Part shown: positions 17,815 through 38,420 of the stretch, one piece after another
Layout of the letters: each line of letters begins with the position of its first letter
How positions within the stretch are numbered: position 1 is the first letter of the stretch
Source of the DNA: an uncultured Erysipelotrichaceae bacterium
Lineage (GTDB): Bacteria; Bacillota_I; Bacilli_A; Erysipelotrichales; Erysipelotrichaceae
Assembly (NCBI GenBank): GCA_902793635.1
Contig: CADBEA010000014.1
Span: 1-51,182 of the forward strand
DNA: 51,182 nt
Direction: 5' to 3'
Made by a program: the position numbers and the translations under genes
The notes under the pieces: generated by a model
Databases searched by the model: none
What the model saw: only the letters and a program-made list of their open reading frames with translations
What the model was told of the DNA's origin: nothing

Positions 17815-20800
17815 TCACATCATCTGCCAGTGTCTTAAATTATTGACATCATTACGGACCGCATGCACATAGACATCCTGTTCGAACTGCTCGATTTCCG
17901 GAATGATGTCCGGGGCAGTCTCTTTCATCGTACGGATGAATCCGTTCAGCATGTCAAACGTTTCTTCAATTTCAACAGTAAATTGTTTTTTGAATTCATC
18001 CATGAACGATCTGTAATGATCTGCATCCTTTGTCTTTTCATATGATGCGACGGACTGTTCCCAGAGCGAACGGATGGCTCTTCTCTTCTTTTCAAGACTG
18101 TCATCTGCCCTGTTTTCTCTGGATTTTTTAATGGCTGATTCAGCACTGCGGACATATCCGCGTTTTTCCGCTTCTTCCATGATCTTCCGCATTTCATTTC
18201 TCTTGATCTGTACTTCGCCTTCCGGATCCTCGTGGTGGAGATATCTGAATACGGATTCATAAGTCTTACAGCAATGTTCCCAGTATTCGAGCATCTCTGA
18301 TTGCAAACTCTCCAGATGCAGCTTCAGCAATGGAGAATCCAGAGTTTCTCTCAGCCAGTCTTCTGCTTCCGCAAGCACGGAGACAGATGCTTCATAATCT
18401 TCCCGGGCTGCCAGAACGTCGGCTTTCAGCAGCAGAAGCCATATCCGGCGGAACGACTTTTCATCATTGGAAAGCAGACTGTCTGCCGTTTTCATATATT
18501 TTTCCGCCTGGGCAATATCACCTGTTTCAAGGCATGCTCTTCCGAAGTAACCTTCATATTCTCCCATAGCCAGGTCCATGTCTTCCGGATTTAAATCAGG
18601 AATGGATTCTATCAGTTTCAGCAGGTCACTTCTGTATGAAAAGACTTCCTGCGGTCTCCCTGACCTGAGCAGTATTTTAATGCAGCACATAATGATATTC
18701 ACACCCTGTTTGACATTGACTCTGTCTTCTCTGTACTGCAATGCCTTCGCCGAATACGAGCAGGCCTCTTTCATATACCGGCAGGCATTCTCTTTGTCAC
18801 CTTTCCCGATGGAAACCCTTCCCATGCAATAATAAATGTCGCGCAGGTCTTCCATGAGGACATATTCTGGGTATCCGCCGTCATCAAAACTGTCTGACTG
18901 ATACAGTTCGAGAAGCTCGGAACAGATATCCCAGTTAGTGTCCCAATATCGTGCATCAAAATACAGTTCCATCCGGCTGCGGCAGTACTTTAAAAGTTTG
19001 TATCCGTACATCGCATCACTGAGCCCCCGGTACCCGGAATGCTTGAGATCTCTGAGCAGCCGTATCGCTTCTTCCCACAATTCCTGGGATTCTTTGTCTG
19101 TTGAATCAAGGCTGTAGATTGATTCGGCCAGGCTGATCAGAGCATTAATATAATCCATTTTAGAAAAAGATGTCCGCTGTCTTTCATCCAACCTGAGCCA
19201 GACGAGTCTGTTTTCATGCAAAAGCTTTATTCTTTCCGGATAATGATTTGGATAATTGCTGGCAAAACTTTCCAGAATGCATCCCCAGTTTGCCAGGTTA
19301 TTATCAGTCGGATACTGGTATACGATCTGCCGGCCGCTTTCAATAACACTTTCTGCCATTTCGATCAGCTTTTCACTGTCATTCCTGTACCGGCTGCTGA
19401 TCAGCTGCAGTTCTGTGAATCTGAGATACATAAGCGAATCATAATAGTTTTCTTCCGTGATATCAGCACGATACTGATCCAGTTCCTTCTCGATTTCTTT
19501 CAGGCTCTGATATAAATGCTCAAAAGCGGAAATGTCCTTTTTTCTGTGCGCTATACGCCAGCAGCGGAAATTCACCAACCTGATCAATGCTCTTTGCCAG
19601 TATCTGTCATGCCGGTCACCAAACAGAGACAGTGCTTCTTCATACAGCTGGCAGCATTTTTCGATCGCATCCGGAACAAGATTTTCTTTTCCATACTGCT
19701 GAGAGTACATCCGTGCCTCTGTATCTCGCGCGGAAGCATTTTCATATGCTCTTTCAGTATCCAGAAGCCGCGGCAGGATCTGATCGATCCGTTTAATCAT
19801 TTCCACAACTTCAGCATAATCTTTTTCTTCCAGTGAAATATCTGCCAGAATACCGCAAATTTCCGCTTTCTGAAAATCGCCTGTTTCCGGATCATTCAGA
19901 AGGATATGAAGAATACTCCTGTAGCAACGATCCACAGGTTCCGAATAACTGTAACGGCCGAAATCCTGTATCCAGAATCTGACCATTTCCTCACTGCTGC
20001 CCTTTTCTGTCAGTTGAGAGAAATAATCCGCATATGACGCATCTTCCTTCATCATGCCGGCCATACATTCACACAGCAGATCACTGTCATCTGTACCGGC
20101 AAGTTCCTTCAGCACCTTGCCACCTTCCGGCAGTTTCTGTTTGAAAATGTAATAATAACCTTCCTTTTTTCGGAAAGACGGATCACTCAGGGCATAGGCG
20201 GCAAGCAGCTCGTCGACAGTACCGTCGGAAATATCCGCCAGGACGGATTCTTTGTATAACCGGTGACTGAAGTTCCATTTGCCATCCTCCTGCACACTGA
20301 ACGCGTCAAACAGGTAGGAAACGATACGCTGAAAGCGGATCTGGGAAAAGTCTTTCTGATCCGTTCTGAGAATATTCTCCAGTTCTGTTTCGGTAAGTCC
20401 TTTCAGTGAGGAAGCAATCAGCTTCAGCAATATGGTGAATTCTTTTTCATCGAACTTCCGCTGTATGGCATTTAGCAGGAAACGCACCATTTCCCGTTTG
20501 TCATCCGGCATCTTTGAAAGCAGCTGTTCCATATACCGGTGAATGCCTTCCATCCCCTGTCCCATGGTCTCCGCTTCGGCAAATTCCGCGCTGTCCATCA
20601 TGAAGAATCTCTGCAGCATGATCGAAAGATACAGCGGATTACGTGATTCTGCCTTGTTAAGAATTCCGTTAACGATCTCGTCGTCGAGCCGTTTGCCTCT
20701 TTTTCCGGCAGTTCTCGCAATGATTTCCCTGGTCTGATGACCGCTGAGCGGTGAAAGACGGATCTGTCTCAGGCCGAGCTGGGTTTTACTGACAATACTC

Positions 20801-21984
20801 TCAAGCGGGAACTCCGGAACGGAAGAAACGACATAGATCAGTCTGGGACAGAGTGTGAACAGGTCGAAATACAGTTCTCTGTTCCTGTCAAATAACTGAT
20901 CAAGACCGTCAATGATGCAATAGATCTTCTGACGGTCGATCTTATCGCTGAGGTACTTCAGTTTTTCATTCAGCGATGCCGGCAGTTCTTCTCTGACCTT
21001 CAGGACTTCCTGCAGTTTTGCAACGGTCATTTTCTTCAGCGTATCGATATTCCCGCATCCCGGTGCTCCGCAGTAATACAGAATGACAGGTCTTTGCGCG
21101 TCGGTGAGGTCTTTTGCGACGGCACTCATCAGGGCCGATTTTCCCGAGCCGGCATCACCGGTAAGATGGATAATCATCTTCTGCCTGTCCCGGAAGCCAA
21201 AGCGCAGCCCTTCGGTGATCAGCCGCATCAGAATTTCAAATTCCTCTTTCGCTCTTGGAATATATGAGGAAAGATAGTATTCACACATCGAATCCGTGAC
21301 TGCCTGTATCTTTTCCGTCTCTGTCGCAGGTTTACGGTCACCGTATTCCTTCCGGATCATCTCCAGCAGGATGTTCTGCACATTCTGAGCAAACGCTTCA
21401 AGGCCGGCCAGCGTGCCGCTTTCACTGTCCCATGTGACGGAATAATCAAGAATGACAGCATTTTCCAGCTGTCGGATTTCCTTTTTCAGACGATTCAGTT
21501 TCGTTCGGTGCACTTCACTTTCCACTTCATACAGTCGACGCATATCTTCCGGCAGGTTTTCGATAAAGGAACTGTCGCGGAAGCAGAATACACACCGGTC
21601 CAGATTATGCGCGTCCCGCAAAGCCGCGTAATCGATTTCGAGATTCGTGATGCTGGAGCCTTCCCGATAAAGATCCGTGATCCGTGTGTCGTTTGTCTCA
21701 TTCACAATATGATAATCGGGAATCCATCCGTACCGTTCCCCCAGAAGCACCACGGTAAAAGGACGGCAGCGGTCAATGGCGTCGATACATACTTTCAGAA
21801 CCTCTTTCCCGCTTTCTTCCTCGCTCATGTTGAGCGTGTTCACGCCCCAGCGCAGATCCAGCTCCTGAATCGTTTCGCCGGTGCTCATCAGTTCCCTGTT
21901 CAGCGAAGGAAAAACAATTTCATGAAGACAGTCGCGCTCGGCCTGCATATCTTTGAACGTTGACGAAATAAATACGGATTTCAT
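17815..21984 (-). CDS. DUF4062 - STAND-type NTPase - helical-repeat protein (first copy)
   Basis: The protein has 1389 residues. Residues 1 to about 125 form a DUF4062 domain (VFISSTFKDMQAERD, DLRWGVNT, LGERYGWIPD). A signalling-NTPase module follows, with Walker A GDAGSGKS (276-283) and Walker B IYCIIDGLDQL (354-364). The C-terminal 800 residues are helical with TPR-like spacing. This order is shared with eukaryotic TEP1, NWD1 and NPHP3 and with bacterial STAND sensors, where the repeats bind a trigger and the N-terminal domain acts. The start at 21984 follows GAGGG. A terminator closes it, and no partner gene is co-transcribed. A paralogue lies at 26238-29912. A defence role is inferred, not shown. 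Confidence 0.85.
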   Translation of the reverse strand: MKSVFISSTFKDMQAERDCLHEIVFPSLNRELMSTGETIQELDLRWGVNTLNMSEEESGKEVLKVCIDAIDRCRPFTVVLLGERYGWIPDYHIVNETNDTRITDLYREGSSITNLEIDYAALRDAHNLDRCVFCFRDSSFIENLPEDMRRLYEVESEVHRTKLNRLKKEIRQLENAVILDYSVTWDSESGTLAGLEAFAQNVQNILLEMIRKEYGDRKPATETEKIQAVTDSMCEYYLSSYIPRAKEEFEILMRLITEGLRFGFRDRQKMIIHLTGDAGSGKSALMSAVAKDLTDAQRPVILYYCGAPGCGNIDTLKKMTVAKLQEVLKVREELPASLNEKLKYLSDKIDRQKIYCIIDGLDQLFDRNRELYFDLFTLCPRLIYVVSSVPEFPLESIVSKTQLGLRQIRLSPLSGHQTREIIARTAGKRGKRLDDEIVNGILNKAESRNPLYLSIMLQRFFMMDSAEFAEAETMGQGMEGIHRYMEQLLSKMPDDKREMVRFLLNAIQRKFDEKEFTILLKLIASSLKGLTETELENILRTDQKDFSQIRFQRIVSYLFDAFSVQEDGKWNFSHRLYKESVLADISDGTVDELLAAYALSDPSFRKKEGYYYIFKQKLPEGGKVLKELAGTDDSDLLCECMAGMMKEDASYADYFSQLTEKGSSEEMVRFWIQDFGRYSYSEPVDRCYRSILHILLNDPETGDFQKAEICGILADISLEEKDYAEVVEMIKRIDQILPRLLDTERAYENASARDTEARMYSQQYGKENLVPDAIEKCCQLYEEALSLFGDRHDRYWQRALIRLVNFRCWRIAHRKKDISAFEHLYQSLKEIEKELDQYRADITEENYYDSLMYLRFTELQLISSRYRNDSEKLIEMAESVIESGRQIVYQYPTDNNLANWGCILESFASNYPNHYPERIKLLHENRLVWLRLDERQRTSFSKMDYINALISLAESIYSLDSTDKESQELWEEAIRLLRDLKHSGYRGLSDAMYGYKLLKYCRSRMELYFDARYWDTNWDICSELLELYQSDSFDDGGYPEYVLMEDLRDIYYCMGRVSIGKGDKENACRYMKEACSYSAKALQYREDRVNVKQGVNIIMCCIKILLRSGRPQEVFSYRSDLLKLIESIPDLNPEDMDLAMGEYEGYFGRACLETGDIAQAEKYMKTADSLLSNDEKSFRRIWLLLLKADVLAAREDYEASVSVLAEAEDWLRETLDSPLLKLHLESLQSEMLEYWEHCCKTYESVFRYLHHEDPEGEVQIKRNEMRKIMEEAEKRGYVRSAESAIKKSRENRADDSLEKKRRAIRSLWEQSVASYEKTKDADHYRSFMDEFKKQFTVEIEETFDMLNGFIRTMKETAPDIIPEIEQFEQDVYVHAVRNDVNNLRHWQMM

Positions 21985-22011
21985 AAGCACCCTCTTATTG
22001 ATTTCTATTAT

Positions 22012-22036
22012 AAAAGAACCAGCGGTCTGCTGGTTC
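22012..22036 (-). terminator. Intrinsic terminator of the phosphoesterase gene
   Basis: On the minus strand GAACCAGC / GCTGGTTC is followed by TTTTAT. The same T-run contains TATAAT (22007-22012), which could serve as the -10 of the following DUF4062-NTPase gene. Confidence 0.75.
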
Positions 22037-22043
22037 AGGAACG

Positions 22044-22844
22044 TTATTCAGCTGTTTTTTCTTCGTGTTCGCGGATGTCATAGACATGCAGCACCTGCTT
22101 GTAGATGCAGATCTGCTTATCGGTGATACTGCGGTTGAGATGATGATGGCCGAAGAACCAAAGATTGTATTTAACCGTATCCTGGATCTTCTGCAGGTAA
22201 TCCGTCATGCGGTCACGGTCGTCGACGCCGATCAGTTTGCAGGTATCGTTGCTGCAGCAATGCGTTATGATCAGATCCACTTCGTTATTGATCGCCGCGA
22301 GGTTCTGCAGGCCGCGCTGATAGACGGCCAGATCCTGTTCGATCTCCTCTTTCCACCAGGAGACCTGATTGATGCGGAAGTAACGCTTTCCCTCCTTCAC
22401 CCACGCCTTGGCGGTTTCCTTCCAGTTGGCATCCTGACCGTCAAGGTTGACGATGCCGTCCAGTGTGTCGTGTGAGGAAGCACCGCCGAACGAGAAGGTT
22501 TTGATGCCGTGGATGTCATAGACATAGCCGCGCTTCAGATGCAGGACACTGTCTCTTGCCACGCCGACCGGAGCGCCGCACCACATCTTCGTGGGCAAAG
22601 CTTCCAGGCGCGGAAAGCATTCGTGATTGCCGTCGATAAAGACCGTCGTAAAAGGTTTCTCATTCAGCCAGTCCAGCCAGAACTTCTCTTCCTTGTTCTC
22701 TCCTTTATAATCCCAGATCAGGCCGAAATCACCGCAGACGATGACGACATCGTCTTTGGTCATTTCACTCTGCTCGGGAAAATGGACGGAATTCAGCCGG
22801 CTGACATCGCCATGGGTATCACCTGTGATCCAGATCGAGGGCAT
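22044..22844 (-). CDS. Calcineurin-like metallophosphoesterase
   Basis: The 266-residue protein has the complete two-metal set: GDTHGD (Asp9, His11), VCGDFG, GNHE, ITHCC and GHHH. Substrates of the family range from phosphoproteins to nucleotides. The ATG at 22844 follows AAGGAGGAAACGT; an upstream extension would run into the preceding gene. It lies 13 bases after the Gate-domain gene and is followed by a terminator, so the two form a likely operon. Confidence 0.88.
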   Translation of the reverse strand: MPSIWITGDTHGDVSRLNSVHFPEQSEMTKDDVVIVCGDFGLIWDYKGENKEEKFWLDWLNEKPFTTVFIDGNHECFPRLEALPTKMWCGAPVGVARDSVLHLKRGYVYDIHGIKTFSFGGASSHDTLDGIVNLDGQDANWKETAKAWVKEGKRYFRINQVSWWKEEIEQDLAVYQRGLQNLAAINNEVDLIITHCCSNDTCKLIGVDDRDRMTDYLQKIQDTVKYNLWFFGHHHLNRSITDKQICIYKQVLHVYDIREHEEKTAE

Positions 22845-22857
22845 ACGTTTCCTCCTT

Positions 22858-24039
22858 CTAAAACATCGTGAACAGTATATAAAGCCAATGGGCTGCCATG
22901 CCGGCGCAGATGCCGCCAATGGTATGGCTTAAGATCGCTTTGCCGATGAGTTCCTTGCAGTGCAGGGAATCCATCATCGAGGCATGAGTGGAAAGATAGC
23001 CGCTCCAGCACATGCACATGGCCGTGAATACGGCGATATCACTGGCATTGATCAGACCCTTGGCTGCCAGATTCGCGGTAATACTCAAAGAAGCACCTGC
23101 CGCGCCTAACGCGGTGACCGGTACACCGATCGCTTCCGGTGAGGAAAAACCGAACAGCGGCCTTAACAGAAAGCCGGCTCTTGCTGCCAGTTCCGGCAGC
23201 AACCGGATGCCTTCATATGCCGCGCCGGTATATGTGCCGTTTTCCGATGGTCCGTTGATCAGCATCAGCACGATCGTACAGATGACGAGAACCCCGGGAA
23301 TGATACTGATGCCCATCTTCACACCGTTGTGGCCGCCGTCCAGGATAGCAGCCATCATACGGCTGCCGATACCGCCGTCACGGATCGGTCGCATGCCGGG
23401 CGGCGTGGTCTCGTGATGGACATCTTCGACTTCCATATCCTCTTCTTCACCGAAGAATTTCTTTGTGAACACCAGCATGACGCGGGTGCTGATGATACTG
23501 CCGATCACAGCGCCCAGCAGACCGAACAGCACCGGCATGGCCATCGACTCATGCATGACGGGTGACAGTGAATACATATAGGTGCAGACGATCAGACCCA
23601 TGCCGAACGAAGTGCCAAGATTGGTCAGAGCCGGGAACTGATACTTCTTGAAATACTTACGGAAACGTCTGTCTTCCGACAAAGCCAGGATAGCCGGGTT
23701 GTCGGAAAGAAAGGTCGTGACGACGCCGAGCGAGGCAACGCCCGGCAGTCCGTAGACCGGTTTCATCAGCGGCTGCAGAATGTGATGAGCCAGCGAGACA
23801 AAGCCGAATTCGGAAAGCAGTCCGGAAACCGCGCCCATGATGACGCAGATGGCGGTGATGTACAGCACCGTATCGATCAGAAGCCGGTAGGCGGTGTTCA
23901 TGATCGTATTCAGGGTGTTTGCCAGTCCCATCTGAAATGCGAATAAAGCGAAAAAGCCAATGAAGATAACGGGAAAGATAAAGGTCTCCAGTCCCAGTTC
24001 TTTTGTATAAGACGGCTGTTTATGATTCGGCTGTGTCAC
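22858..24039 (-). CDS. Nucleoside-recognition (Gate) domain membrane protein, YjiH-like
   Basis: This 393-residue protein has about eight to ten membrane helices. The segment MGAVSGLLSEFGF and the repeated SLGVVTTFLSDNPA suit the Gate/nucleoside-recognition domain found in YjiH and spore-maturation proteins. A cytoplasmic loop around residue 200 is acidic. The start is a GTG at 24039, chosen because CGGAGG lies six bases upstream. The substrate, if it is a transporter, is unknown. It is probably co-transcribed with the phosphoesterase downstream. Confidence 0.78.
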   Translation of the reverse strand: MTQPNHKQPSYTKELGLETFIFPVIFIGFFALFAFQMGLANTLNTIMNTAYRLLIDTVLYITAICVIMGAVSGLLSEFGFVSLAHHILQPLMKPVYGLPGVASLGVVTTFLSDNPAILALSEDRRFRKYFKKYQFPALTNLGTSFGMGLIVCTYMYSLSPVMHESMAMPVLFGLLGAVIGSIISTRVMLVFTKKFFGEEEDMEVEDVHHETTPPGMRPIRDGGIGSRMMAAILDGGHNGVKMGISIIPGVLVICTIVLMLINGPSENGTYTGAAYEGIRLLPELAARAGFLLRPLFGFSSPEAIGVPVTALGAAGASLSITANLAAKGLINASDIAVFTAMCMCWSGYLSTHASMMDSLHCKELIGKAILSHTIGGICAGMAAHWLYILFTMF

Positions 24040-24172
24040 AGTGATCCTCCGGGCATGATGCATATAAAAAATGCCAGTTAACAATACCCATTATACACCT
24101 GCCCCGCTGTTTCAATCTCTTCCTTTTTGTACGGGGTGATTATAATAAAAAGGACAAAAGGAGTTACACAAC

Positions 24173-24808
24173 ATGAAACATTCGAATATGAAACATATGA
24201 TGCTCAGCACTGTCCTGATCGCGTCTTTCACTCTGGCAGCCTGCTCAGCCGATAAAGGCGGCAATTCCGCACCGGTGGAACAGCAGAAACCGGCCAGTTC
24301 GGAAACGACGACGGAAACTACAACAACAGCGAATCCGACCGGCACGGACATGATCAGCGAACAGGATGCCAAGGCCATTGCCCTCAAGGACGCCGGCCTT
24401 AAGGAAGAGGAAGTCGTCTTCATCAAGTTCCATCTTGACCGGGAACATGGCCGCACCGAATATGAAATCGAATTCGTCAAGGACAACAAGGAATATGACT
24501 ATGACATCGATGCCCTGACCGGGGAAATCACTTCCCGTGACTATGAGATCGATGACAGAGCCGCCCTGGAATCCGTCATGCAGCAGAATAACGGAACAGC
24601 CATCAGCCAGCAGGAAGCTCTTGCCCTCGCTCTCAAGGATGCCGGACTGAGCGAAGCGGAAGTTCAGTATCCACACGTCGAACTTGATTATGATGACGGC
24701 CGGCAGGTCTATGAAGTCAAGTTCTATCAGGGACAGATGGAATATAGCTATGACATCGACGCCGCCAACGGCCAGATCCTTTCCTTCGAAAAGGAAATCG
24801 ACGACTGA
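24173..24808 (+). CDS. Lipoprotein with two PepSY domains
   Basis: The 211-residue protein has a lipoprotein signal peptide with lipobox LAAC (Cys24), a Thr/Ser-rich linker and two PepSY repeats, each about 70 residues. The repeats begin with ISEQDAKAIALKDAGL and ISQQEALALALKDAGL and end in YDIDALTGEI and YDIDAANGQI. PepSY domains are found in peptidase propeptides and in envelope sensors. It should sit on the outer face of the membrane. A ribosome site AAGGAG and the terminator downstream mark it as a single unit. Confidence 0.9.
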   Translation: MKHSNMKHMMLSTVLIASFTLAACSADKGGNSAPVEQQKPASSETTTETTTTANPTGTDMISEQDAKAIALKDAGLKEEEVVFIKFHLDREHGRTEYEIEFVKDNKEYDYDIDALTGEITSRDYEIDDRAALESVMQQNNGTAISQQEALALALKDAGLSEAEVQYPHVELDYDDGRQVYEVKFYQGQMEYSYDIDAANGQILSFEKEIDD

Positions 24809-24822
24809 TCCTGTCTATTGAA

Positions 24823-24858
24823 AACAAGCCTCACACAATTCTGTGAAGCTTGTTTTTT
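24823..24858 (+). terminator. Intrinsic terminator
   Basis: The stem AACAAGCCTCACA / TGTGAAGCTTGTT (one bulge) is followed by TTTTTT. It ends the PepSY lipoprotein gene. Confidence 0.8.
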
Positions 24859-24886
24859 CATTTACTTTCATGCCTACGCGTCAGAC

Positions 24887-25381
24887 TTACTGGAACAGTG
24901 TGCAGACCGCAGCCAGGATCAGCGATACCGGAACGGAAAGAATGAAATGTGTCAGATGTTCCTTCCGGTTGTAACCGAACAGATGCGGACCGAGCACTTC
25001 CTTCACTTCCGGATAGAAGTGCGGAAAGAAACCGGAATTGCAGAGCAGGATCCAGTCAAAGACGATGATGTCAAACGCCTTCAGTCCCCACAGCATGATC
25101 AAAAGGCGGACAAAGATCTGCATAAAGCTGTAACCGTTCCGGAGTCCGTCGTAACAGGCGTATACAGGCGCTCCCACAAGCATGCCAACCGACACCGCGG
25201 TAAGTACCCATCCCAGCGCGTGAGCACCCTTGAAACGCTCGCTGTGATTCGTGACGGCGTTCTGCACTTCGAGAGGCGCGGAAGTGAAAAAGCGTTTGTC
25301 CTGGATCAGGCCGACGCCGCTGTACAGCATGAGAAACAGACCGGCCATCATGATCACACTCAGCAGGAATGTCATTGCCAT
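24887..25381 (-). CDS. Four-span membrane protein of unknown function
   Basis: The 164-residue protein has hydrophobic segments near residues 5-22, 57-75, 85-110 and 145-162. A short loop contains HLFGYNRKEH. No family is recognised. It begins four bases after the ATC-hydrolase-family gene, so the two are one transcription unit. Confidence 0.72.
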   Translation of the reverse strand: MAMTFLLSVIMMAGLFLMLYSGVGLIQDKRFFTSAPLEVQNAVTNHSERFKGAHALGWVLTAVSVGMLVGAPVYACYDGLRNGYSFMQIFVRLLIMLWGLKAFDIIVFDWILLCNSGFFPHFYPEVKEVLGPHLFGYNRKEHLTHFILSVPVSLILAAVCTLFQ

Positions 25382-25385
25382 GCCT

Positions 25386-26000
25386 TCACTCCTTCCTGAT
25401 CAGAAAGTCACACTTCTCGCCGTTTTTACCGAGCGTCTGCGTCCGCTGGAATTTCAGACCGGGCAGATGGCCGTAGGTTCTTTCGTCATTGTCACAGTAG
25501 ATCTTGGTCAGTTCAAAACAGCCCAGCTCGCCAAACCACTTACAGTACGGACAGGCGAGAATATCCATCCGCATCTCCCCTTTTTTCTTCGGATAGAAAA
25601 CGTTGCGGAAGCCGCGGGAAGGTCCGAACATGTTTCTGGAAACCGGACCCCAGGCCCAAAGAAAGAGACTGCGGAAGCCGGGAAAGTGAATCATTCCGGC
25701 CAGCTTCTTTCCGACATCCTCGGTCATCTGTCTGATCGTGCTTTCAACGATGTCATATGCTTCTTCTTCACCAATTTCCTCTTTCAGTGTCAGATAGACA
25801 GCAGCGGTCGGAAAGATATAGTGATCCGGATGCAGGCGTTCCTGTTCGGGAATATCGGCGTATGTTTCCAGGATCTGACGCAGTCTATCTTCCGCCTTCT
25901 GCCACAGTCTGTCACTCTGTTCCTTCGGCAGTCTTTGGTCCATCGTCTTTTTGATAAACTTCTTTGTATTCAGCATTTTATCAGCATCAGGTATTTTCAT
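25386..26000 (-). CDS. L-2-amino-thiazoline-4-carboxylic acid hydrolase family protein
   Basis: The 204-residue protein shows the C-terminal pattern of this family: ACPYCKWFGELGC, then IYCDNDERTYG, LKFQRTQTLGKNGEKCDF. The named member converts D,L-ATC to cysteine precursors, but most family members are untested, so the exact reaction is uncertain. The ATG at 26000 follows GAGGTGAAGGAG. A small membrane protein gene follows after four bases. Confidence 0.8.
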   Translation of the reverse strand: MKIPDADKMLNTKKFIKKTMDQRLPKEQSDRLWQKAEDRLRQILETYADIPEQERLHPDHYIFPTAAVYLTLKEEIGEEEAYDIVESTIRQMTEDVGKKLAGMIHFPGFRSLFLWAWGPVSRNMFGPSRGFRNVFYPKKKGEMRMDILACPYCKWFGELGCFELTKIYCDNDERTYGHLPGLKFQRTQTLGKNGEKCDFLIRKE

Positions 26001-26071
26001 ACTCCTTCACCTCAGGAATCTTTCTGTTAGTTGTTCCTAACTATTACATATCATAGCACTGTTTTCCTGAG

Positions 26072-26103
26072 ATACAAAATGTTCCCTGCCGTTGGCAGAG
26101 AAC
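26072..26103 (-). terminator. Probable intrinsic terminator of the second DUF4062-NTPase gene
   Basis: On the minus strand GTTCTCTGCC / GGCAGGGAAC (26094-26103 with 26081-26090) is followed by ATTTTGTAT. It lies about 135 bases after the stop codon. Confidence 0.6.
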
Positions 26104-26237
26104 CTTCTCATCCTGTCTTTTGTTATACTGCCCCATTCCGATTCTCTCCAGCTGCTCAGCGACGAAGGCGTCCCATTTCTTCTGCCAGGCAGCCAGCATT
26201 TTTTCAATTTCCGGATCGGAAAGTCCGCTGTATCTGA

Positions 26238-29200
26238 TCAGTCTTTGTGTTTTTCCTGATAGCCGGCCACGATGCCCCTGATAATACCGTCGGGATCGTC
26301 GTAGTCGATGGGTATCTGTTTGCCGTTTTTCATCCGGAAGATCAGCTGCTTTTTCACCAGCTGCACTTCCTGGATGTTTTTATATTCCAGGTGTCCGGCA
26401 TAATCATATGTCGTATCAAATGCCTTAGGCAGGATAAAGACGCTGCCATATACTGTTTTGAACAATGATTTCTTCGTAGTATCAAGCCAGGCAATGACAT
26501 CTTTTACAGAAAGGCCCATTCCGGCATTCTTTATCGCCTGTTTCACTGTTTCCGGATCGTCTTTGGCAAAGACCAGTCTGTTTTTATTTGGCAGTGCTTC
26601 CGCCACGTCCGCGACCGACTGATCGGACGCCTTCAGGGTTTTCAGCAGCTGACTGTAGAAAGCAGCATCACTGCCGCCTTTCCCGGCATTCTCATGAAGC
26701 CTGTCATATACGTTCTTCTTCAGGCTGGCCGCTTCAAACAGTTCCCGGTAAGAATTCCACACCGGATCTTTCAGTTCACTGTAATGATACTGCCGCCATG
26801 CCGGCTCGATTTCATCCAGCACTTGATTGATCAGTGTCTCCGCCTTTTCATTCTGTTTGATGATCAGAAAAGACATGGCCATCAGTTCAGCCGTTTCATA
26901 TCTCAGCCGGTAATTGACAGCTGTCTGTTTCTGCTTCAGGGCAACAACATCTTCATTCGTCCATTCACTGACTTTTTCATTGAAAAGTTTCCGGCATTCT
27001 TCGTCATCGCGGAATCTTTCCGGCAGATTATTCCGGTATACAAAATCCTTGATATGGAAGAACTCCGTCAGGAAGGAAGAAAGTCCGTATTTCCTGTATC
27101 CCATCCGGCATACCGAAAAGGAATCAAGCAGACGTCTGGTGACATCGAGTCTGTCCTCATGCGTCAGAGATTCCGTCGTCAGCATCTTCATCTGGGCGTA
27201 ATCGTTATATGCACGCACTTTCCAATTCAGATACTCGCTGTCACCCCCGACAGACATCATGTCAAAGGTTTCCGCTGCCTTGGCGATATACTCGAAGGCT
27301 TTCCGGTTATCGCCGGCCGATCTGCCTTTATGCAGGTTGTACATATTCATATAACTGCCGGCAAGCAGAAGCCGGTTGGCAGGAACAGGATTCTTTTCAT
27401 ACATTTTTACCCGAAGAGCCAGATCACGTCTGTACATTTCTTTCCACTTCTTATCATCGTCCATACGCATATACACTTCACCCATACTGCCGTAGTAGTT
27501 GGAATACAGTGTATTGTTCTGTTCGATCAGATAATCGCAGAATTCTTCATCGGCCAACAGTTCATCACATTCATCCGCCAGCTTCAAAACTTCGGAAAGA
27601 ACTTTTATGTCAGAGTCATTCTTCAATGCCCAGATTGCCTGATAATAGGTATCGAACAGGATCTCCCGGTCTTTGAAATCCGCCCGATCCATTTTCTCGC
27701 GGCAGTAATCCAGCTGGATCTTTGTATATTTCCGCTTTAAAGGAATACTGTGGGGTGTAAATCTGACAGCTACCTTGCACAGCTTCATGATATATGCCCG
27801 CTGATGGGTTTCCGGCAGGCTGTCGAATTTCGCCTGCAGAAGTTCATATGTTTTATCCAGGATTTCACAGACAAGTTCCGACTGCTCTTTGTTTTCTTCA
27901 AAATGGTTCGGAAGCTCATACAGCACGAAATTGAGAAGACCATATTTGTACTGGTCGTTCTCCTGAACATAACTGATCAGTCCGATGGTGGCTTCCGTCC
28001 CCTCACGGATAATCTGATAATGGAAGTTTTCGGCAACAGAACGTGCCAGTTCAGAATCCTTGCTTTGGCTGCATTCTTTTACAAAGACAGCCAGGTCTTC
28101 GTATTTGCGGGCTTTGAGCAGATGCCAGACATATTCACAGCGCTTCAGGGGATCTTCTTTGCTCAATGTTCCAAGATAGGCACAGATCTCATCGTTGTAT
28201 TTTGCGAAGTCAGTATTCTGCAGTATGCCCTCCCGCAATGATTTATGCATGAAGTCATAACGGCCGTCACTTCTGACAATAAAGTCCGTATTCAGATAAT
28301 TGATGTAATGGGCAAAATCCAGAGTGCTCCAGTTCCTTTTGCATAAAGCAATCAGATCAGATACCCTGAGTCCGAATCTGCTTACGGCAAGATACTTTCT
28401 CACCTTCTCACAGAACAGCCGGTTGATACGCCGGCCAACTTCTTCAAAGACATATTCCGACAAGGAAGGAAGATCAGCAGGCATTTCATTGATCAGCGTG
28501 ATCTGCCTTTCGGCAATCGCCGCATTCGGTTCCAGGGTAGAACTGTTGATCACATCAAAGTCCGTGACGTTCATGATGCATAAGCGCTGCACCATCAGTG
28601 AAATGGACAGCGGCAGACCGGCGGAAGGATTGTGCATGATACCTTGTTTGACAGAGCCGTGCAGTTCTTTCCTGATATGGTCCAGATAGCCGTCAATGAC
28701 TCTTAACTGATCCTGTTCGCTCATGTCTTCCAGTACCAGAGAAGACAGATAATCCGTCTTGATATCTTTCGTACAGGTAATAAAGAACTTCACATTGGCG
28801 GGAATCTTCTTCGGAATAAAGATCATCTTCGATCTGTTCTCATCCGGAAACAGCTGATCGACCGCATCGATCAGCACATAGACATTCTCCTGCGCCGGCA
28901 CTTTCCTGAGAACGCTGAGGTATTTCTGCAGCAGTTCAGAGACAGGCACATTTCCGGTTTTCCCTGACTTCTCATTGGAAAACAGACAGAAGTCATTGAT
29001 GATCATTTCCGTAATATGGTAGGCATCGGTCGCTTCCGGTGTCAGACCGCAGGCGATCGGCAGAACATGATGCCCTTCCTTTTTCAATGCCATGGCCAGA
29101 TATGACAGCAAAGTGCTCTTGCCGCTGCCGGAATCACCGGCGCAGATCACGACCTGCTTGTCCGTATTCTTCAGAATGGCAAGACACTCCTCAGCATCCT

Positions 29201-29912
29201 TCTGACGGGCACTGAAAAGACTTTCCTTTTCCTGCACATAGTCCCAATGGGTACGCAGCAGACGTTCAAAAGGACTCATCCGGTCATAAGTCTGCCAGTC
29301 CTTTTCCATGACTGCCTTCAGATGTTCCGTGACCTCCAGCGCAAAGGAACGGATATCATCAGCACCCGGCACACCATTCACCATATGCACGGTATATTCA
29401 TGCACAGTGGTATTGCCCAATGCCAGAATACGGTTCTTCAGTTCCTGCAGTTTGTTCTGATGATAACTATCTTCATAATCATAGATACCGGGAATATGAT
29501 CATCCGCTATGTTCCGTATATACACCAGTGTCGGCTGTTTCAGATGGCAGACACCGTATTCGATCTCCAGTGCGGTAACACTTTTCTCCAGATCTTCCAG
29601 ATACAGCCGGTGTGCCTTCGCGGCATTGGCGACGATCTCTTTGTCAGGGATCCAGCCATAACGGTAACCGGTCAGAATAATAAAAGGCGGCTGACATCTG
29701 TCAATCTGGTTGAAACAGACGTCAAGCACCTTTAAAGAACTGGCTTCTTCACTCATATCGGACGTATTGATTCCCCACCGCAGGTCGCAGAAGTCAATTT
29801 CATCACCGTGTTTGCGGGCTTCCTCATTGATCTTCGGGGCGCAGATATCCCGTAAGGCATCTCTTTCCGCCTGCATGTCCTTGAATGTACTGGAAACAAA
29901 TATTGTTCGCAT
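26238..29912 (-). CDS. DUF4062 - STAND-type NTPase - helical-repeat protein (second copy)
   Basis: The protein has 1224 residues. The DUF4062 domain (FVSSTFKDMQAERD, DLRWGINT, YRYGWIPD) is closely like that of the first copy. Walker A is GDSGSGKST (259-267) and Walker B YVLIDAVDQL (345-354). Long helical repeats follow. The last 70 residues form a distinct module (YGSVFILPKAF, YAGHLEYKNI, FRMKNGKQIPIDYDD) resembling a bacterial PH-like fold; the first copy lacks it. The start at 29912 follows AGAAGGG. It is a single-gene unit. After the stop, a -1 frame stays open for about 65 codons (see findings). A sensor or defence role is inferred from architecture. Confidence 0.85.
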   Translation of the reverse strand: MRTIFVSSTFKDMQAERDALRDICAPKINEEARKHGDEIDFCDLRWGINTSDMSEEASSLKVLDVCFNQIDRCQPPFIILTGYRYGWIPDKEIVANAAKAHRLYLEDLEKSVTALEIEYGVCHLKQPTLVYIRNIADDHIPGIYDYEDSYHQNKLQELKNRILALGNTTVHEYTVHMVNGVPGADDIRSFALEVTEHLKAVMEKDWQTYDRMSPFERLLRTHWDYVQEKESLFSARQKDAEECLAILKNTDKQVVICAGDSGSGKSTLLSYLAMALKKEGHHVLPIACGLTPEATDAYHITEMIINDFCLFSNEKSGKTGNVPVSELLQKYLSVLRKVPAQENVYVLIDAVDQLFPDENRSKMIFIPKKIPANVKFFITCTKDIKTDYLSSLVLEDMSEQDQLRVIDGYLDHIRKELHGSVKQGIMHNPSAGLPLSISLMVQRLCIMNVTDFDVINSSTLEPNAAIAERQITLINEMPADLPSLSEYVFEEVGRRINRLFCEKVRKYLAVSRFGLRVSDLIALCKRNWSTLDFAHYINYLNTDFIVRSDGRYDFMHKSLREGILQNTDFAKYNDEICAYLGTLSKEDPLKRCEYVWHLLKARKYEDLAVFVKECSQSKDSELARSVAENFHYQIIREGTEATIGLISYVQENDQYKYGLLNFVLYELPNHFEENKEQSELVCEILDKTYELLQAKFDSLPETHQRAYIMKLCKVAVRFTPHSIPLKRKYTKIQLDYCREKMDRADFKDREILFDTYYQAIWALKNDSDIKVLSEVLKLADECDELLADEEFCDYLIEQNNTLYSNYYGSMGEVYMRMDDDKKWKEMYRRDLALRVKMYEKNPVPANRLLLAGSYMNMYNLHKGRSAGDNRKAFEYIAKAAETFDMMSVGGDSEYLNWKVRAYNDYAQMKMLTTESLTHEDRLDVTRRLLDSFSVCRMGYRKYGLSSFLTEFFHIKDFVYRNNLPERFRDDEECRKLFNEKVSEWTNEDVVALKQKQTAVNYRLRYETAELMAMSFLIIKQNEKAETLINQVLDEIEPAWRQYHYSELKDPVWNSYRELFEAASLKKNVYDRLHENAGKGGSDAAFYSQLLKTLKASDQSVADVAEALPNKNRLVFAKDDPETVKQAIKNAGMGLSVKDVIAWLDTTKKSLFKTVYGSVFILPKAFDTTYDYAGHLEYKNIQEVQLVKKQLIFRMKNGKQIPIDYDDPDGIIRGIVAGYQEKHKD

Positions 29913-29996: not shown

Positions 29997-30743
29997 TCAA
30001 TCCTCAGTTTTCAATAAGCTTCTGACCAATTTTATCTCTTCCTGCATGAGAAAGAGTGAGTTCTGTTTTTCTTCCAGTACAGTTTTAGAATTCTCTATCT
30101 GCTCTTTCAGATCAGTAATCTTTTTCTGTTCTTCCTCTGTCAGCAAAAGCGGTAGATTCTCACCTTTGTAAGATTCATAAGCCGCACAGGCTTTTTTCTG
30201 CGTATCATTCAGCTGGCCGGATGCACAAGCGGATTCCCAGAACCCTGTATCGGTAAAATCATAAATCTGATCAGATCCAATTGTGTTATTTCCCACAAGT
30301 TTTGAAACAGTCCCAACAACGCGCCTGAATAACAATGGAAATGTTTTACTCTGATCCAAAGTCAATTGCGCATATAATGCGTTTAATTCATCCTCTTTTG
30401 CCTGAATCTGAACTGTCAGATTATTGATTTCCACCTGCTCGGCATCTATCTTCGCCTGATATTCATCGATTTTCATCGCATACGCAGCCAGATTATTACG
30501 GATTTCATCTTGCTGATTTTTCAGTTCTTTCAATTGTTGATTCAATGTGCCGAGGGAGCTTTTCAGATATTCTGAATATGCTTCACAAGCTTCCTGTTCT
30601 TCTTCGTTGAGATTATGTGATGTACAGAGATTATTCCAATAATCTGTATCTGAATAATCCGGTTCATCAGCATATACAGTCTGAAAGGAAACAGTAATAA
30701 CTGTAACTGTAGCAATCAGTATGTTTGTAATAGTTCTTTTCAT
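29997..30743 (-). CDS. Secreted CwlO/PcsB-like coiled-coil protein without a hydrolase domain
   Basis: The 248-residue protein has a signal peptide ending in VYA (around residue 25). Two copies of a motif with paired Cys follow: LCTSHNLNEEEQEACEAY and ACASGQLNDTQKKACAAY. Each is followed by a long coiled coil. This resembles the N-terminal half of peptidoglycan hydrolases such as CwlO and PcsB, but no NlpC/P60 or CHAP domain is present. It may be an adaptor or a regulator of cell-wall cleavage, or a truncated hydrolase. The region up to the amidohydrolase gene (about 100 bases) shows nothing clear. Confidence 0.75.
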   Translation of the reverse strand: MKRTITNILIATVTVITVSFQTVYADEPDYSDTDYWNNLCTSHNLNEEEQEACEAYSEYLKSSLGTLNQQLKELKNQQDEIRNNLAAYAMKIDEYQAKIDAEQVEINNLTVQIQAKEDELNALYAQLTLDQSKTFPLLFRRVVGTVSKLVGNNTIGSDQIYDFTDTGFWESACASGQLNDTQKKACAAYESYKGENLPLLLTEEEQKKITDLKEQIENSKTVLEEKQNSLFLMQEEIKLVRSLLKTED

Positions 30744-30841: not shown

Positions 30842-32062
30842 TCAGCGGATCATTGTTCCCTTCAGGAAAACGTGTTCCGGCTTTCTGTACATGACAGTAA
30901 TGTCATTTACGGGATCGCCGTCAATGACGATCAGGTCAGCATCCTTTCCTTCCGCCACCAGACCGGTACGGTCGTCGATGCCCATCAGCACAGCACTGTT
31001 GACAGTTGCCTGTTTCAGGATATCGGCATTGTTCCAGCCCAGGAAATCATGGCGGTGACGGAATTCCGATCCCGGTTCTCTGGTATATGCCGCAAGCGAC
31101 TGGTCGGTTCCCCAGCCGATGAGAATATCTCCTCTCTGATAGGCGCTGTTCAGACAGATCCTGATCTTTTCGAGAAGCGCACTGACCTTGGGAATGACAT
31201 GTTTGCCATATTCCGAATCCGGATCGGTATGTTCGATCAGTTCCATGGTCACGGACAGAGTCGGTATAATACCGGCATCTTTTCTTCCGGCCAGAAGATC
31301 AAGTCCCTCTTTGTCAATGAAGCTGGCATGTTCGATCGTCCGCACGCCGCAATTGAGTGCCTGGACAATGGCTTTCGCGCCATGACAGTGGATGGCACAG
31401 TATGTTTCGTTTTCTTCCGCGATCTTCACTGCTTCGAGGATCTCATAATCTTCCATGATGCCGATGCCAGGCACACTGCCCTTTCCCATCATGGATCCGG
31501 TACCGTACAGTTTGATAAAATCTGCGCCTCTGGCGAAGTTGATACGCACAGCCTTGCGCATCTCCTCTTTGCTGTCGACATTGTACGGTACCATATAACC
31601 GAACTCACTGTCCGGTGTGCCGCCGGCGTTGGTCGGTGTCATGGTGATACCGGAAGTATAGATGTGCGGTCCCTGAACAGTGCCTTCGTTAACGGCATTT
31701 CTCAATGCTGTAACCGAGAAGTACCTATCTTCGCCGCAGTCTCTGACGGTTGTCACACCGATATCGAGAAGATGCTTCGCGTATTTCAGATCCCGCAGCG
31801 TCCTGGCACAGGGATCCACATAGTTGGCTTCGGCCGGATTGGTTTCCGTCATGGAAAGATGGATGTGGGCATCGATAATTCCCGGCATCAATGTCTTTCC
31901 TGCCAGATCGAAGACTTCCATTCCTTCATATGTCTTCTTGCCGCTCTCACGGATTCCGGCAATGATACCGTCTCTGATTACGATATCGGCAAGTTCAGGT
32001 GCACCTTCTTCGCTCAGCTGAGGGATCAGCCGGCAGTGTTGCAGCACATATGTATGATTCAT
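30842..32062 (-). CDS. Amidohydrolase, imidazolonepropionase/prolidase-like
   Basis: This 406-residue metal-dependent hydrolase has the first metal motif DAHIHLS, a likely carboxylated Lys in DFIKLYGTG, IHCHG and IEHASF further along, and the final Asp in GWGTDQS. The C-terminal segment LVAEGKDADLIVIDGDP is typical of the family. It may cleave Xaa-Pro or cyclic amide substrates. The ribosome site GGGAGG precedes the ATG at 32062. It starts 16 bases after the UvrA-like gene and could be co-transcribed. Confidence 0.9.
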   Translation of the reverse strand: MNHTYVLQHCRLIPQLSEEGAPELADIVIRDGIIAGIRESGKKTYEGMEVFDLAGKTLMPGIIDAHIHLSMTETNPAEANYVDPCARTLRDLKYAKHLLDIGVTTVRDCGEDRYFSVTALRNAVNEGTVQGPHIYTSGITMTPTNAGGTPDSEFGYMVPYNVDSKEEMRKAVRINFARGADFIKLYGTGSMMGKGSVPGIGIMEDYEILEAVKIAEENETYCAIHCHGAKAIVQALNCGVRTIEHASFIDKEGLDLLAGRKDAGIIPTLSVTMELIEHTDPDSEYGKHVIPKVSALLEKIRICLNSAYQRGDILIGWGTDQSLAAYTREPGSEFRHRHDFLGWNNADILKQATVNSAVLMGIDDRTGLVAEGKDADLIVIDGDPVNDITVMYRKPEHVFLKGTMIR

Positions 32063-36103: not shown

Positions 36104-38230
36104 TTATATTTCTTCGAATCCAATGCTTTTTAAATAGTTATATGTACCATCATAGTACGAAGGAAGGCGTGTACTATCTTCCCAATAACCATTAGAACGT
36201 TTATGCTTGTTCCCTTCTGGAACACAAATAATCATTCCCGCTCTTGCACGCGTTAATAATACTCTATATGCATTCAACATATATTGAACTTTTTCCTGCT
36301 TATCTTCGGTTTTTGCTACTACTTCTTTCCATTGCGTTTTGTTATTAAACGTATAAAAATGCCACTTTCCGTTTTCATAGCGCATATCTGCGTCCCATAA
36401 CAGACATGTATAATCCAGTTCTAATCCTTGTACTTGAATTTCTGTTGCTGCGTCTTCAAGATAATTTGATGATCTAACATCTTTTTTATCTTCAAGGAAC
36501 CAGTGAATTGCATCATTATCTCCAGATTGTAAAACATGTATTCCAAGTGGTTTATATCGTGCAGATTCTTTAGTAATCAGTACACCTGTTCTTTCAGAAC
36601 CTCTACTCTTTTCTTGTAACCATCTTTTAGCTTTTTCCATATCTCTGGTCAGTTTAATAGGATAATTCTGACTTATTTCCGCAAAAATCGAGGCGGCTGT
36701 TGGCTCTATTGCTAATAGCGCATGAACCATTGCAGACAGTTTTTCTGCTCTGTATGAACGTAATGTAACTCCCAAATGCAAACTCTCAGAATAAGTGACA
36801 TTTTTATTATTTTCTAATAATTCGTTAACTCTTCCTTCTGCATATTCAGGTTCAGAAAGCTGTGGTGAAATATACACTTTCCAATGAGTAAATCTTTCAT
36901 TTAATGCTTTAATCCACTCAGATATCCCAGCCTCACCTGTGTGTATTTCTTGTCCACCGCCAACAAGACATATTATTGTTGCCCAGTCTTCCCTTTGATC
37001 AAGAGACCAAATCAAAAAAGCAGCTTCAGACATAGGGAAATTTGGGACTTTTAATTTATTCCCATAAGTTCCCCCTCTTTTCAAATAATATGCCAATCTT
37101 TTATGTGTCCAAGACCGTTGTGCTTCGTCAAAAATAGCTACATGTTCCACTTCACCATATCCAGCATCCTGCATTTTGATTGCTTTTTCAGGATCTATTT
37201 CAAGTTTTTCATTTTCAACAGGAATCTTTATCTTAGCAAGCATATTGTCTCTATAACGATGAATCATCTGAATAAATTTTCCGACTTCACGTTTAGAATC
37301 TGACTTATTCTTGTTTCTATGTTTCTTATGATTATCCCTTGCTAAAGCTTCAGATAATACAGCAACTAAAGGCCCATTTCCTGATAAATATACAGCTCCT
37401 TCATCCGCTACAGGCTCATCAAATCCCTGATATGTTTGCTTCACTGCAACTTCAAGACCTACTAGTGTTTTTCCTGCACCAGGAACACCAGTAATAAAGC
37501 AAATGCTCTTTTCACCTAGATTTTTACTTTTCTGAATTACATCCAGAATGTATGAAATAGTTCTGTCAGTTGTAACCTTATCTGCTTCATGTCTTGTAAT
37601 ATCCTCAACAGAATGACTTTCATACAGTGTTCTTGCAGCTTCTATAATTGTGGGTGTTGGTGAATATGGACTAATAATCCAATTAGAATTAATCGGAGTT
37701 TCAGTAGGAAATTCACTCAGCAAGCTCCTTATTAATTCTGCAATGCCATTTTCTCCGGTCACTAATGGATTTACAACTCTATCATGATAAACCGATGGTT
37801 GAATAATAGTTGAAGATTTTTTATACTTTGTTGCGATAAGAATTGGAGCAATTAATGCTTCTTGACTATATTTATGGAAGTATTTTAAGTCCAAAGCATA
37901 ATCTAAAACTTGGTCTATATCGTTTTCATATATGACAGCTTCTCCAACTTTAAACTCAAGACAAAAAACAATTCCGTTCAATAAAAGCACAACATCTATT
38001 CTTTTTCCTAAACGAGGAATATCGTATTCAAAAATAATCTGTCCGCTTTCACTATTCAAGGAAACTAATGTCTTTTGTAAGATTTCTATTTCCTTCATCC
38101 ATGCTTCTCTTGTTGTTGTTAATGCATCACCATGATAGTTTTCACATAACAAGCCGAATATTGTTTCCTTATCTTTTTTTAGAAAAGCATCAATTTCACT
38201 ATTATACAAACATCTGGGGGTTTTATTCAT
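36104..38230 (-). CDS. Nuclease-helicase fusion with a DUF2075 AAA domain
   Basis: The protein has 708 residues. Residues 1-200 contain a likely PD-(D/E)xK nuclease core, KRIDVVLLLNGIVFCLEFK (Asp then Glu-x-Lys). A DUF2075 helicase-like ATPase follows, with Walker A ITGVPGAGKTLVG, the Walker B region VAIFDEAQRSWT and a C-terminal helicase motif YRVLLTRARAGMI. DUF2075 proteins with nuclease domains are typical of defence and mobile loci. The ATG at 38230 follows AAGGAG. The gene is clearly more AT-rich than its neighbours and uses A/T-ending codons, which points to recent acquisition. No restriction or methylase partner is present. Confidence 0.85.
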   Translation of the reverse strand: MNKTPRCLYNSEIDAFLKKDKETIFGLLCENYHGDALTTTREAWMKEIEILQKTLVSLNSESGQIIFEYDIPRLGKRIDVVLLLNGIVFCLEFKVGEAVIYENDIDQVLDYALDLKYFHKYSQEALIAPILIATKYKKSSTIIQPSVYHDRVVNPLVTGENGIAELIRSLLSEFPTETPINSNWIISPYSPTPTIIEAARTLYESHSVEDITRHEADKVTTDRTISYILDVIQKSKNLGEKSICFITGVPGAGKTLVGLEVAVKQTYQGFDEPVADEGAVYLSGNGPLVAVLSEALARDNHKKHRNKNKSDSKREVGKFIQMIHRYRDNMLAKIKIPVENEKLEIDPEKAIKMQDAGYGEVEHVAIFDEAQRSWTHKRLAYYLKRGGTYGNKLKVPNFPMSEAAFLIWSLDQREDWATIICLVGGGQEIHTGEAGISEWIKALNERFTHWKVYISPQLSEPEYAEGRVNELLENNKNVTYSESLHLGVTLRSYRAEKLSAMVHALLAIEPTAASIFAEISQNYPIKLTRDMEKAKRWLQEKSRGSERTGVLITKESARYKPLGIHVLQSGDNDAIHWFLEDKKDVRSSNYLEDAATEIQVQGLELDYTCLLWDADMRYENGKWHFYTFNNKTQWKEVVAKTEDKQEKVQYMLNAYRVLLTRARAGMIICVPEGNKHKRSNGYWEDSTRLPSYYDGTYNYLKSIGFEEI

Positions 38231-38420
38231 AATCACAGCTCCTTAAATTCTTTTGTTTGAAGATTTGAATCCAAAAGCTATTTTGTTTACAAATTAATAT
38301 TTGATTCTCATTATATCCCATATCTCCTATTATTCCGTACTCATTTCGTTAGTTTTACACCTGTTGATTCCACCATGTAAGCATTATGAATATGCAATGG
38401 AAAAATATAAATAAAACGCC

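Follow-up and report, generated by a model that had tools for sequence, protein, structure and literature searches.

The DUF4062 domain was recognised as a TIR-like NADase only in 2026, in a protein without a switch and in the vault protein TEP1 (May 2026 preprint, PMC13174449). The switch-less protein, Swarozyc of Klebsiella (KpSwz), is a DUF4062 NADase that is turned on by a phage portal and causes abortive infection through loss of NAD+. The DUF4062 head of human TEP1 is likewise active, and its activity is lowered by alanine at R908 or R976, while the corresponding heads of NWD1, NWD2, and NPHP3 are inactive in vitro; KpSwz and TEP1 yield only ADP-ribose and nicotinamide (PMC13174449). Here we analyse a window of 51,182 nucleotides on contig 14 of the 2.43-Mb draft genome of an uncultured Erysipelotrichaceae bacterium, which carries two large genes, P0001 and P0002, that combine a DUF4062 head with a STAND NTPase and C-terminal repeats (Table 1). 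They are the sole DUF4062 genes of this genome. We give a probability of about 0.7 to the reading that they encode two independent single-gene STAND receptors resembling nucleotide-binding leucine-rich repeat receptors (NLRs), with the N-terminal TIR-like domain as effector (i.e., ligand-triggered NAD(P)ases), probably directed against phages.

The TIR-like head of P0001 and P0002

Both heads find their counterpart in TEP1. The crystal chain of the TEP1 TIR domain (11gz_A) matches residues 6-216 of P0001 (phmmer, E 6.5e-21) as well as P0002 (E 6.9e-11), and is the only PDB sequence match of the two proteins. The residues discussed in the preprint (R908, R954, R976, and E1008) agree on one numbering offset to this chain, and the corresponding columns were read from an alignment of 87 bacterial proteins from several phyla, P0001 and P0002 included. 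The column of TEP1 E1008, equivalent to KpSwz E97, holds glutamate in 87/87 proteins and is E116 in both P0001 and P0002. Arginine is likewise invariant at R976 and at R1030 (87/87 each). At R908, Arg or Lys is found in 75 of the 87 proteins (P0001 and P0002 both have Lys); R954 is not kept (Glu in P0001, Lys in P0002). The column of R942, which lies in the DLRWG motif, is biased by the search pattern; the other columns are not. Glu116 is the predicted catalytic residue of both window proteins, and by analogy with Swarozyc, TEP1, and Avs5 the two are expected to be NADases.

An earlier note on this DNA, made from its letters and open reading frames (ORFs), had placed two DUF4062-STAND proteins at 17815-21984 and 26238-29912; ORFs are found there on the minus strand, that of P0001 opening already at a GTG at 21990 (17815-21990, 1391 amino acids). 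The motifs quoted in the note, SSTFKDMQAERD (residues 7-18), DLRWG (43-47), and YGWIPD (85-90), have the same residue numbers in P0001 and P0002. Both proteins match DUF4062 in Pfam (PF13271; E 2.8e-14 and 3.3e-14, 53.5 and 53.3 bits, respectively, against a curated cut-off of 24.7). The P-loop/STAND families nSTAND1, NPHP3_N, and NACHT score above cut-off in the window proteins, and HTH_NWD1 and HTH_TANC1 give weak matches below it. Walker A (GDAGSGKS in P0001, GDSGSGKS in P0002) and Walker B (IIDGLDQLF and LIDAVDQLF) are intact. The proteins show what defines STAND/NLR-type receptors, namely intact Walker A and B, a winged helix and C-terminal repeats, in the TEP1/NPHP3-type order of DUF4062, NACHT, winged helix, and repeats. 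The suggestion that DUF4062, possibly TIR-like in fold, could itself be the effector has gained from the NADase activity proven in the preprint and from the catalytic Glu in both proteins.

STAND switch, TPR-type sensors, and their divergence

Behind the head, P0001 and P0002 consist of a STAND switch and a TPR-type sensor. Residues 1-640 of P0001, modelled from an alignment of 70 sequences, reached a mean predicted local distance difference test (pLDDT) score of 91.3. The top Foldseek match of this model in the PDB is the plant TIR-NLR RPP1 over 604 columns, with a large root-mean-square deviation indicating that the domains are placed differently. VIA-align gave Z scores of 19.4 to the STAND-TPR protein 6mfv (319 residues) and 19.1 to Apaf-1; these alignments covered mainly residues 221-618 and say little on the TIR part, so that the TIR assignment rests on the 11gz sequence match and the Foldseek match to RPP1. 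Together, the sole PDB sequence match and these fold matches bear out the TEP1/NWD1/NPHP3 architecture proposed in the earlier note. For the repeat half of P0002, the model shows a TPR superhelix (LGN, Z 17.9; pLDDT ~72-96 in the TPR part), and weak Pfam matches suggest a TPR-type sensor in P0001 as well. As to the PH-like tail that the note had ascribed to P0002 only, the AlphaFold model does show a beta-rich C-terminus of six strands and a final helix in the last ~110 residues, at a pLDDT of ~37-74 that led us not to assign it; a PH-like tail is plausible, at low confidence.

The two proteins are ~31% identical across the first ~640 residues, with no detectable similarity beyond, so the repeat parts differ as previously claimed. 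In a tree of bacterial relatives (it holds no eukaryotic sequences), P0001 belongs to a clade of 18 rows that has a support of 100 and is rich in Lachnospiraceae, and P0002 to a separate, strongly supported clade. P0001 and P0002 are old, separate lineages; an origin by tandem duplication was rejected on the basis of these clades and the 31% identity.

The same partition into a conserved head and a diverging sensor is found across the family. A scan of 84,980 species genomes confirmed 169 relatives, and the best 80 of these supplied 77 loci. Most loci are from gut Lachnospiraceae and other Bacillota, the others from Planctomycetota, Bacteroidota, Myxococcota, Acidobacteriota, Armatimonadota, and Gastranaerophilales. 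When 76 long proteins were compared pairwise, similarity could be recognised over the first 580 residues in 2849 of 2850 pairs and beyond residue 640 in only 320, and pairs with heads 40-50% identical have sensors that are ~26% identical or undetectable. Comparison with the sister species gave ratios of nonsynonymous to synonymous divergence (dN/dS) of 0.10 for the head, 0.16 for the switch, and 0.36 (0.355) for the sensor of P0001, and of 0.07, 0.07, and 0.22 (0.216) for those of P0002, i.e., two- to three-fold higher in the sensor than in head and switch. This pattern is as expected for arms-race receptors, with the proviso that dN/dS below 1 is no proof of positive selection and that relaxed constraint also fits. 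Tree, half-by-half similarity, and dN/dS all agree with the earlier view of divergent sensors on the same head.

Elsewhere, genomes have between one and five DUF4062 genes (five in that of locus L061), sometimes in tandem (L061, L066, L110, and G116 contig 10), so clustering of these receptors recurs. In the L061 pair (Roseburia, L061:10001-21878), two DUF4062-STAND genes 14 bp apart have heads 88% and sensors 72% identical; the pair arose by tandem duplication not long ago, and its sensors have diverged faster. Relatives were found in 7 of the 100 genomes scanned, a small minority, all in one genus (that of the window), and in none of 40 genomes scanned from the sister family. Synonymous divergence from the sister species is 0.75 for P0002, compared with 0.21 for P0001 and 0.24-0.30 for the nearby UvrA-like and CD0519 genes. 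Because P0002 exceeds its neighbours in this respect and P0001 does not, the P0002 allele may have been swapped between lineages since the two species separated. In an empty-site comparison within the genus, gene order was scrambled, with synteny kept only in G045 and G011.

Proposed function of the pair and RyR-domain neighbours of relatives

At rest, the NACHT switch would keep each receptor monomeric and its TIR-like active site idle. The cue bound by the C-terminal TPR sensor, most likely a phage protein, would differ between P0001 and P0002; on binding, nucleotide exchange would let the NACHT domains oligomerise. The TIR-like heads would thereby be brought together and hydrolyse NAD(P)+ to ADP-ribose and nicotinamide, and the resulting loss of NAD(P)+ would stop the growth of the infected cell or kill it. 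We infer the phage trigger, oligomerisation, NADase activity, and abortive infection or protection, and with them an immune role, from Swarozyc, TEP1, and Avs5. For DUF4062, a protein with a different sensor has been shown to act as a NADase and to defend against phages (PMC13174449), and Avs5, whose STAND switch is joined to a TPR-type sensor and a SIR2 NADase head, works in the manner described (PMC12931631). For the window pair itself, the computed support consists of the homology to the TEP1 TIR domain, the catalytic Glu, the Walker motifs, the STAND fold, the TPR sensor of P0002, the patchy distribution, and the diversification of sensors on a conserved head.

Several observations weigh against this explanation. 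R908 is replaced by Lys in both window proteins and R954 by Glu in P0001 and Lys in P0002. Human NWD1, NWD2, and NPHP3 share the architecture and have no NADase activity in vitro (PMC13174449); with three of four human relatives inactive, a conserved fold is no guarantee of activity. No relatives were found in 50,697 phage records or in IMG/VR viral contigs and only two, both distant, on plasmids, so that mobility rests on patchiness and phylogeny. Enrichment of defence genes near homologues, which the earlier note had put forward as a check, did not appear: PADLOC matches were no commoner in 138 immediate neighbours than in 120 random-region proteins from the same genomes, the counts being approximate (families listed rather than members, with housekeeping-like proteins flagged in both sets). 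We accordingly claim no association with defence islands from our data. The published survey assigns ~20% of bacterial DUF4062 homologues to predicted defence islands, and more than half adjoin at least one known defence gene homologue (PMC13174449).

One family recurs beside the receptors of relatives. Near the DUF4062-STAND gene, 8 of the 77 loci (Table 1) encode a membrane protein whose N-terminal membrane helices are followed by a Rossmann part and, at the C-terminus, a RyR domain (PF02026). Six of these are strong cases, against 0.23 expected from the density of the family in DUF4062-bearing genomes (Poisson 1.7e-7; the density is a rough estimate from 11 genomes), and of 290 other genomes of the class, only 6 have a member of the family. 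Several other copies lie among unrelated genes, and another (L182:5216-9229) stands ~200 bp from a canonical TIR-AAA-TPR gene in divergent orientation. According to a report of May 2026, the RyR Repeat12 domain binds 2'- and 3'-cyclic ADP-ribose and cleaves them (PMC13232231). The four residues through which RyDEP contacts its ADP-ribose-type ligand (PMC13232231), placed here by motif spacing and alignment rather than by structure, are kept in 17/17, 17/17, 17/17, and 16/17 copies, and they are conserved in the strong cases. Short RyR-only proteins were also seen, one of them (a 105-residue frame, E 1.8e-34) on G038 contig 36, ~17 kb from the DUF4062-STAND gene of locus L031, and others in G105 and G112. 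We found no description of the pairing of DUF4062-STAND and RyR-membrane genes in the literature searched, most subscription papers being outside its reach.

These neighbours suggest that some DUF4062-STAND members signal to a membrane effector. We tentatively propose, as a possibility that is somewhat more doubtful than not, that a subset of DUF4062-STAND receptors, and at least one canonical TIR-STAND-TPR protein, form two-gene systems in which an ADP-ribose-type messenger from the head would open or activate the adjacent RyR membrane protein, the window copies representing a one-gene, NAD-depleting branch. If true, this would be a bacterial NLR-to-RyR-channel pathway built on the very Repeat12 domain with which phages destroy such signals and which also occurs in animal calcium-release channels; if confirmed, the neighbour would link TIR-type NAD+ chemistry with a bacterial effector that resembles the ryanodine receptor.

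Extended to the window itself, signalling of this kind would mean that the heads of P0001 and P0002 make ADP-ribose or a cyclic isomer that is read by a separate membrane effector, as in Thoeris, the reader being the adjoining RyR protein in relatives and something else in the window genome. The excess of RyR neighbours, the copy next to the TIR-AAA-TPR gene, and the kept ligand residues all speak for it, but KpSwz and TEP1 yielded only ADP-ribose and nicotinamide (PMC13174449), most relatives lack the partner and neither window gene has an adjacent membrane partner. A search of the whole window genome detected no RyR domain, so the two genes should act alone, and an RyR partner for them was rejected. 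We consider this explanation unlikely for the window pair. It is also quite improbable, in our estimate, that the heads are pseudo-enzymes serving as oligomerisation or adaptor modules, as may hold for NWD1, NWD2, and NPHP3, with recruitment of a partner as the output. The inactive human proteins and the changes at R908 and R954 would fit such a role; what argues against it is the invariance of the catalytic Glu and two Arg of the active-site region in all 87 proteins, which is rare for pure scaffolds, together with the lack of a conserved partner neighbour for two genes that both look monocistronic.

Regulation of normal physiology by STAND proteins without a role in defence, for which MalT in maltose metabolism is a precedent, could account for the missing PADLOC enrichment, and the structure of a maltose-system regulator (8bob) is indeed among the fold matches. 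Against it stand the rare and patchy distribution, the fast-evolving sensor, the multiple copies in some genomes, and the NADase-type head; a DNA-binding output domain was not found either. We regard this explanation as very improbable. Ligand-triggered NAD(P)ases acting as independent single-gene receptors remain our preferred reading of P0001 and P0002.

Genomic setting and comparison with known systems

P0001 and P0002 are separated by 4.2 kb with genes for a calcineurin-type phosphoesterase, a CD0519-family membrane protein, and PepSY proteins. Terminator-like hairpins precede P0001 and follow P0002 (Table 1), so each gene would form its own transcription unit and is probably monocistronic. 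A joint operon or system of P0001 with the upstream metallophosphoesterase (PADLOC PDC-S10-like) was considered and rejected, given the hairpin between them; phosphoesterases are also absent among the recurrent neighbours of relatives. About 6 kb from P0002, a Schlafen group 3 helicase gene sits between genes for a GHMP kinase and a Rce1-type protease, a slot that in the sister species (L029:8109-10883) holds a type IV methyl-directed restriction enzyme (E 1.4e-117) and that looks like a site of defence-gene exchange. Near P0001 lies a gene for a KptA/Tpt1 RNA 2'-phosphotransferase, an NAD+-using enzyme that is probably unrelated (16094-16645). Between P0002 and the UvrA-like gene, a secreted-looking coiled-coil protein (29997-30743) and an amidohydrolase (30842-32062) are encoded, both missing in the sister species.

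Table 1. Coordinates of P0001, P0002, and other window features, and of RyR-membrane genes in related loci
Feature	Position	Strand	Remarks
P0001: DUF4062 (TIR-like)-NACHT/STAND NTPase-winged helix-helical/TPR repeats	17815..21984	-	1389 amino acids from ATG at 21984
P0001 TIR-like DUF4062 head, residues 1-215	21340..21984	-	phmmer to 11gz_A, residue mapping, model
P0001 Glu116 codon (predicted catalytic)	21637-21639	-	residue mapping
P0001 Arg84 codon	21733-21735	-	residue mapping
P0001 NACHT/STAND NTPase and winged helix, ~residues 216-600	20185..21339	-	Pfam nSTAND1/NPHP3_N; VIA-align
P0001 Walker A	21136-21159	-	
P0001 Walker B	20890-20916	-	
P0001 C-terminal helical/TPR sensor, residues 601-1389	17818..20184	-	fast-evolving, lineage-specific; weak TPR matches; dN/dS
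P0002: DUF4062 (TIR-like)-NACHT/STAND NTPase-TPR superhelix-low-confidence PH-like tail	26238..29912	-	1224 amino acids
P0002 TIR-like DUF4062 head, residues 1-215	29268..29912	-	phmmer to 11gz_A
P0002 Glu116 codon (predicted catalytic)	29565-29567	-	
P0002 NACHT/STAND NTPase and winged helix, ~residues 216-600	28113..29267	-	Pfam NACHT E 2.8e-8
P0002 Walker A	29115-29138	-	
P0002 Walker B	28848-28874	-	
P0002 TPR superhelix sensor (from ~residue 601) and low-confidence beta-rich PH-like C-terminus (last ~110 residues)	26241..28112	-	AlphaFold model
Intrinsic-terminator-like hairpin between upstream phosphoesterase gene and P0001	22016..22036	-	8 pairs and T-run
Intrinsic-terminator-like hairpin just after P0002	26081..26103	-	10 pairs
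Schlafen group 3 helicase gene	36104..38236	-	AT-rich (GC ~0.36); PADLOC candidate PDC-S41, E 1.3e-244
RyR-membrane gene	L055:4709-6208		10 bp upstream, same strand as DUF4062-STAND gene
RyR-membrane gene	L045:4823-6262		31 bp upstream, same strand as DUF4062-STAND gene
RyR-membrane gene	L108:8534-9967		34 bp upstream, same strand as DUF4062-STAND gene
RyR-membrane gene	L089:13508-14848		28 bp from DUF4062-STAND gene
RyR-membrane gene	L057:4445-5884		2.7 kb from DUF4062-STAND gene
RyR-membrane gene	L047:15558-16979		4.3 kb from DUF4062-STAND gene
RyR-membrane gene, divergent form (Planctomycetota)	L112:13918-15723		552 bp away
RyR-membrane gene, divergent form (Gastranaerophilales)	L066:8098-9876		125 bp away, between two DUF4062 genes

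With Swarozyc (PMC13174449), the window proteins share a DUF4062 TIR-like head with the catalytic Glu and a single-gene layout. Swarozyc has a short helix-turn-helix (HTH)/winged AUX domain that binds the phage portal, and no NTPase; no such domain follows DUF4062 in P0001 or P0002 (1224-1391 amino acids in all), where a STAND switch and then a long sensor of TPR type take its place. Avs5 (PMC12931631) resembles them in joining a NADase head, a STAND ATPase, and a C-terminal repeat sensor in one protein, with sensors that vary between homologues, but its head has the SIR2 fold whereas the window heads are TIR-like. None of the PADLOC models for Avs (AVAST) matches P0001 or P0002 at E 0.01, and other models give weak, chance-level matches. 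The plant TIR-NLRs RPP1 and ROQ1 likewise combine a TIR NADase head, an NB-ARC/STAND switch, and a repeat sensor; unlike the window proteins, they have canonical TIR heads and a leucine-rich repeat sensor and signal through EDS1. The STAND-TPR protein 6mfv and bacterial NACHT defence proteins share the STAND NTPase with a TPR sensor, the matched part being without a TIR-like head.

There is also a likeness to human TEP1, NPHP3, NWD1, and NWD2, in which a DUF4062/TIR-like head with the same catalytic Glu directly precedes the NACHT ATPase, winged helix, and repeats. Compared with TEP1, the window proteins are bacterial, have a TPR-type sensor (as in NPHP3) in place of WD40 repeats, and lack TROVE and vWA domains and a vault. 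DUF4062 NADases have been known since 2026, and what is new here is the bacterial TIR-like-STAND-TPR receptor pair. Where two or more copies occur, a single type of head is combined with many sensors, which indicates that bacteria have diversified recognition and kept the output. Bacterial DUF4062-STAND-TPR proteins share their domain order with the four human proteins, three of which look inactive in vitro; given a bacterial receptor whose trigger is tractable, the activation mechanism of the whole architecture could be solved.

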